NCBI GenBank assembly: GCA_016875015.1
Contig: VGSJ01000015.1
Location: forward strand, 1 to 47,253
DNA length: 47,253 nucleotides
Direction: 5' to 3'
Source: Deltaproteobacteria bacterium
GTDB taxonomy: Bacteria; Desulfobacterota; Desulfobaccia; Desulfobaccales; 0-14-0-80-60-11
Positions 45,880 through 47,253 of the stretch are shown piece by piece. A model generated the notes under the pieces. The model made no database searches, had not been told where the DNA came from, and was given only the letters and a program-made list of their open reading frames with translations. The translations under genes and the position numbers were made by a program. Position 1 is the first letter of the stretch. Each line of letters opens with the position of its first letter.

Positions 45880-45914
45880 AAAAAACAGGCAGGGTAACAT
45901 TCACCCTGCCCGTT
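45880..45914 (-). terminator. Intrinsic terminator of the sorting-tagged protein gene
   Basis: On the minus strand ACGGGCAGGGT-GAATGTT-ACCCTGCCTGT is followed by a T run (TTTTTTGT). It lies 30 bp after the gene's stop. Confidence 0.88.
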
Positions 45915-45943
45915 TGCAGTTTGATCAGGAAAAGAAAATCTGA

Positions 45944-46513
45944 TTACGTGCGAAGCTTCAGCCGTAACCCCCCCATGGCTAACAGACCGGAGCCCAGCAG
46001 CCAGACCGCGCCGGGGATGGGGACGTTTGAGGTCGCCTGGTCCACCCCGTCAAACCACACGCTATAATAGCCAGGGGCCTTCACCCAATGTTGCTCGATA
46101 GGGATAGGGGTCTGGCCATCGTAACTAAAACCATCCGCCAGGGTGGATCCCTTTGCAAAATTAGAATAGGCGGCCACGGTAAATTGGTAGTTGCCCGCCG
46201 CCAGGGTGGGCAGAATAAAACCCGAGTCCCAGTATGTCTGGGTAAGGGGGTTGACGGAAGAGTTGTCATCATTTTCGGCGATCAAATTTCCGGTTGCGGT
46301 CCAGAGCGCGGTGATGGGATCAAAATTGGCCGCGTTTTGGAACGAGTCGGTCCACACCCTGACGTTGGTGGCGTCGTTCGCCAAACTGAAATTAAAGTAA
46401 ACCACGTCAGTATGGAAGTAAAGATTGCCGGTAAAATTAAAGGTGCCCGCCTGGGCTCCGGCCGCGGAACACAACAGCCCGATGGCCATTAAGAATACGA
46501 CAAGCTTCTTCAT
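45944..46513 (-). CDS. Secreted DVUA0089-like protein with PEP-CTERM-type sorting tag
   Basis: 189 residues. A signal peptide (MKKLVVFLMAIGLLCSAAGA) leads into a beta-rich domain with FNFTGNLYFHTDVVYFNFSL and YQFTVAAYSNF. The end VPIPGAVWLLGSGLLAMGGL followed by RLKLR is a PEP-CTERM-like sorting signal: short motif, membrane helix, basic tail. An exosortase would recognise it, but none is in the window. The ATG at 46513 has AGGAGGTG with 6 nt spacing; a GTG 3 codons earlier is part of that ribosome site. Two c-di-GMP riboswitches upstream suggest a role in the matrix or cell surface. Confidence 0.85.
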   Translation of the reverse strand: MKKLVVFLMAIGLLCSAAGAQAGTFNFTGNLYFHTDVVYFNFSLANDATNVRVWTDSFQNAANFDPITALWTATGNLIAENDDNSSVNPLTQTYWDSGFILPTLAAGNYQFTVAAYSNFAKGSTLADGFSYDGQTPIPIEQHWVKAPGYYSVWFDGVDQATSNVPIPGAVWLLGSGLLAMGGLRLKLRT

Positions 46514-46685
46514 AATTTCCACCTCCTGTAAACATTAAGTAGTTGAAAAACAGCTTACTTCCTAACCAACTCCCAGAAAGATTTTTCCTATGGTTCCCTG
46601 CCGTTTCCCAAAATTAACCTGATATCACCTCGTTACCATGGGGTCGGCTTTATGGACCAGGCTTGTGAAAATGTGACAAAAACAT

Positions 46686-46713
46686 AAAAACCGGGCTACT
46701 CGAGGCAACCCGG
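46686..46713 (-). terminator. Riboswitch expression-platform terminator, proximal copy
   Basis: CCGGGTT...AGCCCGG then TTTTT on the minus strand. Its left arm overlaps the 3' part of the aptamer (GCCGGGTTGCC), so terminator and aptamer exclude each other, as in an on-switch. Confidence 0.8.
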
Positions 46714-46778
46714 CTGTCTCATTTTCCCGAGACCCGTGGCTTTCCGTCCCCGCCTTGCAACGGGTTTGGCTTTGTCTC
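46700..46778 (-). ncRNA. c-di-GMP-I (GEMM) riboswitch aptamer, proximal copy
   Basis: Minus strand: GACAAAGCCAAACC, a P2 hairpin CCCGTT-GCAA-GGCGGG with a GNRA loop, GACGGAAAGCC, a second helix GGTCTC...GAGAC and the closing AGCCGGGTTGCC (tetraloop receptor side). These blocks are in the order of GEMM-I RNAs. The base third before AAACC is G (position 20 in the Vc2 numbering), typical for c-di-GMP rather than cGAMP forms. Confidence 0.85.
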
Positions 46779-46962
46779 TCTCTATAAACTTTGCAAAAAT
46801 TATTCCACAATCTGATAATGCCCGATCCTGGAAAATTTTAAGAGCGATATCCTTGTGTTACCCCTAAGAAGCCTGATTCCGGCTTTACCGTGGCACCCTG
46901 AATAGTGTAATTCTTCAAACATAATGTTTAATATCTTTGACGTATGCAGGTGAAGCGCCATG

Positions 46963-46994
46963 AAAAAGCCGGGTTACCGTTCCAGGCAACCCGG
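46963..46994 (-). terminator. Riboswitch expression-platform terminator, distal copy
   Basis: CCGGGTT...AACCCGG perfect 7 bp arms, extendable by CC/GG, then CTTTTTC on the minus strand. The left arm is part of the aptamer. Confidence 0.82.
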
Positions 46995-47056
46995 CTGTCT
47001 CATTCTTCCGAGACCCGTAGCTTTCCGTCCCCGCCTTGCGACGGGTTTGGCGTTCA
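46981..47056 (-). ncRNA. c-di-GMP-I (GEMM) riboswitch aptamer, distal copy
   Basis: Minus strand: GAACGCCAAACC, P2 hairpin CCCGTC-GCAA-GGCGGG, GACGGAAAGCT, GGTCTC...GAGAC and AGCCGGGTTGCC. It is nearly identical to the proximal copy in the core but differs in loops. G at the position-20 equivalent again. The ~180 nt between the copies (46779-46962) shows no gene. Confidence 0.86.
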
Positions 47057-47070
47057 CAGTCGATGGCGGA

Positions 47071-47099
47071 AACTTATTACAAAGCGACAACTAAGTCAA
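47071..47099 (-). promoter_or_regulatory. Promoter upstream of the tandem riboswitches
   Basis: On the minus strand TTGACT (47099-47094) and TAAGTT (47076-47071) are 17 bp apart, just upstream of the distal aptamer, in an AT-rich stretch. The rest of 47100-47253 shows no gene. Confidence 0.55.
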
Positions 47100-47253
47100 G
47101 AAAAAAAAAGATATTAATAAAAAAATATGCCTATTGACTTAGCTCATAAAGATTTCTGGGTTGTCAGTTGATGATATGTGACAGTTTCAGTTGATATACA
47201 AGCCTTGACCAGGCGATCAAAAAGCTCATTTTCCCAAAAGCGACGATTAAAAC

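Follow-up and report, generated by a model that had tools for sequence, protein, structure and literature searches.

Two tandem c-di-GMP-I riboswitches, both equipped with a terminator, ahead of a single gene for a putative exosortase-type protein

The leader described here carries two copies of the GEMM-I (c-di-GMP-I) riboswitch ahead of one gene, which raises the question of what a second switch for the same ligand would add, and whether the pair deserves to be called a logic gate. The locus lies in the window, by which we mean the whole stretch of DNA that was analysed (47,253 bp); it is the complete contig C15 of the host genome (3.1 Mb in 148 contigs), which comes from an uncultured bacterium related to sulfate reducers. 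Our preferred reading, to which we assign a probability of about 0.85, is that two independent and complete c-di-GMP-I ON switches act in series on one transcript, which starts at a single weak promoter and leads to one gene for an exosortase-type protein. The relevant features are as follows, in the direction of transcription:

47128..47253 (-), end of an insertion element, presumably IS1595-like; the window and the contig stop inside it, and it lies directly upstream of the tandem promoter
47073..47099 (-), promoter-like site TTGACT-15-TGT/AATAAG, matrix score 11.1; weak, with a spacer of 15 rather than 17
46981..47060 (-), aptamer 1, c-di-GMP-I (GGC subfamily); RF03167 67.6 bits, E 5.9e-14; RF01051 66.2 bits
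46967..46996 (-), intrinsic terminator 1, with the 3' strand of aptamer 1 as its left arm (AGCCGGGTTGCC); 12 bp, -23.2 kcal/mol, followed by TTTT
46780..46966 (-), spacer without a gene or a significant fold; its homologue is the rejoined spacer of contigs C88 and C92 (see below)
46789..46810 (-), possible remnant of a promoter for switch 2 (TTGTGGAATAATTTTTGCAAAG), by eye like the promoter of the single switch on contig C32, lacking TTGACA and the 17-nt spacing
46700..46779 (-), aptamer 2, c-di-GMP-I (GGC subfamily); RF03167 72 bits, E 3.2e-15; RF01051 68.6 bits
46689..46715 (-), intrinsic terminator 2, with the 3' strand of aptamer 2 as its left arm; 11 bp, -16.9 kcal/mol, followed by a U tail
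46522..46527 (-), ribosome-binding site AGGAGG, 8 nt upstream of the ATG, as read from the sequence
45944..46513 (-), gene for a 189-aa DVUA0089-family secreted protein with a VPIPGAVWLLGSGLLAMGGLRLKLRT tail; NF038127 E 8.8e-43
45883..45915 (-), terminator after the gene, 15 bp, T tail

An earlier note had proposed two GEMM copies about 275 bp apart. A covariance search (cmscan, Rfam) returned two full-length minus-strand matches, both above the gathering scores of both models (59 bits for RF03167 and 35 bits for RF01051), with a start-to-start distance of 281 nt. The remaining anatomy proposed in that note was also recovered: each copy is followed by its own terminator, whose left arm is taken from the aptamer 3' strand; one promoter, weak by our scoring, precedes the first copy (we found nothing above background before the second); the sole downstream gene (46513-45944, minus strand) follows the second copy; and the leader, put at about 550 nt, measures ~553 nt if transcription starts, as we infer, near 47066 and the ATG lies at 46513.

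At the columns equivalent to the ligand-contact residues G20 and C92 of Vc2, both aptamers have G and C. In the model, aptamer 1 has almost no P1 stem (one pair and a U.U mismatch); for this reason it may have a lower affinity, and the K values of the two switches may be unequal. A recent duplication of one aptamer into the other was considered and gave no clear signal: the two share 88% identity, and the copy on contig C90 is 87% identical to each.

The direction of the switches is suggested by the way in which aptamer and terminator overlap. In both copies the aptamer 3' strand AGCCGGGUUGCC, in which the equivalent of residue C92 and the 3' side of P3 are located, is at the same time the left arm of the terminator. 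When the downstream 45 nt were shuffled, an equal or longer overlapping terminator arose by chance in 1/5000 cases for terminator 1 and in 11/5000 for terminator 2, so the overlap is above chance for both; by the same strict test, such a terminator accompanies 8 of the 12 GEMM-I copies of the genome. Because the terminator arms include the aptamer 3' strands with the C92 equivalent, the two folds are mutually exclusive. In both copies the most stable unconstrained fold is that of the terminator (-57.1 and -41.8 kcal/mol, versus -26.1 and -27.2 when the aptamer fold is imposed), and this, together with the fold exclusion, points to an ON-switch layout for both copies.

The promoter was scored with a matrix built from six single or first switches of the same genome, each with TTGACA-17 just upstream of the aptamer. 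The site before switch 1 (TTGACT-15-AATAAG with an extended TGn) scores 11.1, between the 95% and 99% points of shuffled sequences (10.5 and 11.8); a 9-of-12 sigma-70 match was found nowhere on the minus strand. The spacer between the switches was searched for other elements. A third structured RNA was rejected (no Rfam match, and folding no better than that of shuffles, z -0.76 for the 187 nt), as was a gene, given that no credible ORF is present: the single listed minus-strand ORF touching the spacer is a 61-codon TTG ORF (46625-46810) that crosses aptamer 2. A cobalamin or other partner switch, as in Desulfobacca, was likewise rejected, with none detected in the window by the Rfam scan. The locus consists of two complete switches (an aptamer and an expression platform each) with no gene between them, an anatomy that agrees with that of tandem pseudo-cooperative riboswitches (PMC9481103).

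Both aptamers are predicted from their sequence to bind c-di-GMP, and the host genome encodes seven GGDEF domains. Variants of the class that bind c-AMP-GMP are known within the same order, and the rule by which they are recognised (A at the specificity position) comes from in-line probing in Desulfobacca (PMC9481103). In the related genome G024 one aptamer, the fourth, has A at this position, and it matches the published c-AMP-GMP binder; another relative carries a GEMM-I copy of the predicted c-AMP-GMP type, also with A, upstream of a VPLPP-tailed gene (L139, G003 C123:11169-11243). Both window aptamers, however, have G at the specificity position, and it is very improbable that either or both of them sense c-AMP-GMP.

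The sub-consensus character of promoter 1 would also fit a situation in which switch 2 has its own start and controls the gene alone, switch 1 being a leftover that yields a short terminated RNA. The sequence upstream of switch 2 resembles a decayed switch promoter, so that this switch may once have been autonomous. Yet the best sigma-70 matrix score in this region, 5.8, does not even reach the mean of shuffled sequences, 6.8 (other promoter types lie outside the matrix); the best score at the paralogue on contig C92 is also 5.8, and the first switch of that pair, on contig C88, reaches 19.1. Moreover, aptamer 1 retains its binding residues and terminator 1 is intact, and we regard an independent start for switch 2 as unlikely. 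Closely spaced aptamers with 88% identity might, alternatively, bind cooperatively as one composite sensor, in the manner of tandem glycine aptamers. The glycine type has two aptamers and one shared expression platform, whereas here a terminator follows each aptamer and the first decision is made before aptamer 2 is synthesised; the absence of a significant fold in the spacer also speaks against such a sensor, which is hardly credible at this locus. The two switches are more plausibly co-transcribed, and since no promoter above background precedes switch 2, this switch most likely relies on polymerase that has read through switch 1.

In the preferred reading, that of two ON switches in series, transcription would start at the one weak promoter, around 47073-47099. 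In the absence of c-di-GMP, aptamer 1 would give up its 3' strand to the terminator and RNA polymerase would halt; with c-di-GMP, this strand would be kept in P3 and the ligand site, and the polymerase would continue to switch 2, where the decision would be repeated. Expression would then equal the product of two read-through probabilities, so the gene would be kept tightly OFF when c-di-GMP is low and turned ON when it is high. For independent, equal switches, the model narrows the 10-90% ligand range from 81-fold to 40-fold (effective Hill 1.19), a gain in steepness that becomes smaller with leak or unequal K. The leak is squared (e.g. from 10% to 1% read-through), and fold induction rises from 9 to 81. 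The main benefit of the second switch may therefore be the multiplied repression of leak, with a modest addition of steepness.

The earlier note had gone further and proposed an AND-type gate with a steep response, in which both copies must be ligand-bound for read-through. The series of ON switches is upheld by the anatomy; the gate and the steepness are overstated, as there is one ligand and the predicted Hill value is 1.19, and the demand for binding by both copies is too strict, given that terminators leak. Because both inputs are the same ligand, pseudo-cooperative is the appropriate term, and the published Boolean table reserves AND for two different inputs. The word is tolerable only as a loose way of saying that read-through is needed at both switches.

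The regulated gene encodes a protein that belongs to the DVUA0089 family (NF038127, 146.3 bits against a cut-off of 29). Its C-terminal tail, of the VPxP type (VPIPGAVWLLGSGLL...RLKLRT, with a basic end), fits a tail pattern that recurs in this genome (10 occurrences, none in the reversed control); against the VPLPA-CTERM model TIGR03370 it scores 14.7 bits, under the cut-off of 25.35. One exosortase is encoded in the genome (TIGR02602, 161.4 bits against 105.55), and the protein may be sorted to the cell surface as an exosortase-type substrate. As a terminator follows the gene, it is probably monocistronic. No full-length match to the protein was found in 58 relatives, and no GEMM-I copy lies near the nearest DVUA0089 proteins of other phyla (L082-L084). 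The idea that the exact tandem is conserved in relatives was rejected on this ground and on that of the spacer, whose matches are limited to its own genome.

These spacer matches, the only ones outside the locus itself, lie on contigs C92 (3' half) and C88 (5' part), and they are connected with the insertion element at the end of the window. The 126 bp of the element end present here recur unchanged at the termini of contigs C92, C68 and C9, with 109 bp at C88; the other end of the element shows a 22-bp match next to a partial ORF that begins with a CxxC zinc ribbon. The same element end also terminates two other contigs that bear switches. Contig C88 ends with a switch and spacer followed by the repeat, and C92 starts with the repeat, followed by spacer, switch and two genes for VPLP-tailed proteins. 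When the flanks were joined at their common 8-mer TTGCCTTA, the resulting spacer measured 198 nt (201 nt in the window) and could be aligned with the window spacer throughout (63% identity, z = 26.8 versus shuffles). A second tandem GEMM-I leader, paralogous to that of the window, thus appears to have been split by the IS1595-like element at C88/C92. Since the rejoined spacer aligns over its whole length, the tandem leader was probably already a unit by the time that two different genes came under it. One simple insertion does not explain the junction, because the element end is the same on C88 and C92; two inverted copies, or an effect of the assembly, may account for it. At a separate locus (L023, G000 C33:10663-10845), the P3 loop of a GEMM-I copy holds ~100 nt of inverted-repeat sequence (TATTACTCAGGCCA...TGGCCTGAGTAATA), which resembles a small mobile element inside the aptamer.

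The association of these switches with the tail pattern extends beyond the window. A GEMM-I switch leads six of the nine transcription units of the genome that contain the pattern (contigs C15, C16, C24, C32, C41 and C92; hypergeometric P ~5e-14, with 2,900 genes assumed and 11 switch-led units). In related genomes, 11 of the 46 aptamers examined precede a gene with the tail pattern, mostly in G003 and G024, and many other aptamers of relatives precede TadE-like pilus genes (named by eye). One GEMM-I copy with a good promoter has no evident gene for more than 3 kb downstream (L017, G000 C64:10357-10439) and is possibly orphaned. We give an even chance to the proposal that, in this order, GEMM-I forms a dedicated regulon of exosortase cargo (comprising a graded series of singles, same-ligand tandems, cobalamin/c-di-GMP pairs and c-AMP-GMP variants, all of them ahead of VPxP-tailed surface proteins), with tandem leaders duplicated as units onto different cargo.

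The tandem is real and its anatomy had been read correctly, and the arrangement is already well described. As many as 347 doublet and 12 triplet c-di-GMP-I arrangements have been catalogued as pseudo-cooperative riboswitches (PMC9481103), with the same class, architecture and predicted logic as the tandem of the window, and c-di-GMP tandems have been reported to be enriched in Thermodesulfobacteriota (PMC12452182). By itself, the window tandem is one more clean doublet in a known class. We observed further same-strand GEMM-I pairs in two other genomes (L120, G021 C26, and L121, G052 C12; 237 and 229 nt apart), which precede a TadE-like gene and a 717-codon gene, targets unlike that of the window.

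The closest measured counterpart is Bc3-5, the triple-tandem c-di-GMP-I riboswitch of Bacillus thuringiensis cspABCDE (PMC4759541), which likewise consists of complete switches in series with their own terminators and the ON direction. It differs in having three copies, in having been measured experimentally and in its host phylum and genes, whereas the window tandem has two copies and is described from sequence. In the Bacillus tandem Bc4-5, the background dropped to 0.070 (from 0.342 or 0.168) and the fold change rose from 11-13 to 28 (PMC4759541), which is the same direction as in our series-switch model. The presence of paralogous single, tandem and apparently IS-split leaders within one genome offers a natural test of tandem function.

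Within the same order, clusters of cobalamin and c-di-GMP-I/c-AMP-GMP switches have been reported in Desulfobacca acetoxidans (PMC9481103). In the related genome G024, three cobalamin switches and four of the GEMM-I class form a 6.5-kb cluster that matches the published one; G024 is therefore probably D. acetoxidans, and the window presumably belongs to the same order. There too, GEMM-I stands ahead of genes with the same VPLPG..LLLG tail; the genes after the three cobalamin/c-di-GMP(c-AMP-GMP) clusters end in VPLPGAVLLLG tails (L135, G024 C1:900000-909500), and their products resemble exosortase substrates. Cobalamin is the ligand of the partner switch in those clusters, so the gate has two inputs, in contrast to the window, where both switches are predicted to sense the same ligand. 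The published section on these clusters discusses conductive pili, not exosortase substrates (PMC9481103).

The more interesting lead is the link between c-di-GMP and exosortase cargo: the locus points to control of such cargo by c-di-GMP at the RNA level, which is seldom mentioned in the searchable literature. A partial precedent exists, because four c-di-GMP-I switches of Methylophaga nitratireducenticrescens GP59 precede PEP-CTERM/VPLPA-CTERM genes (PMC12530212). As in the window, a c-di-GMP-I switch is placed there ahead of an exosortase-substrate gene; the difference is that GP59 is a gammaproteobacterium and is listed with one switch per gene.
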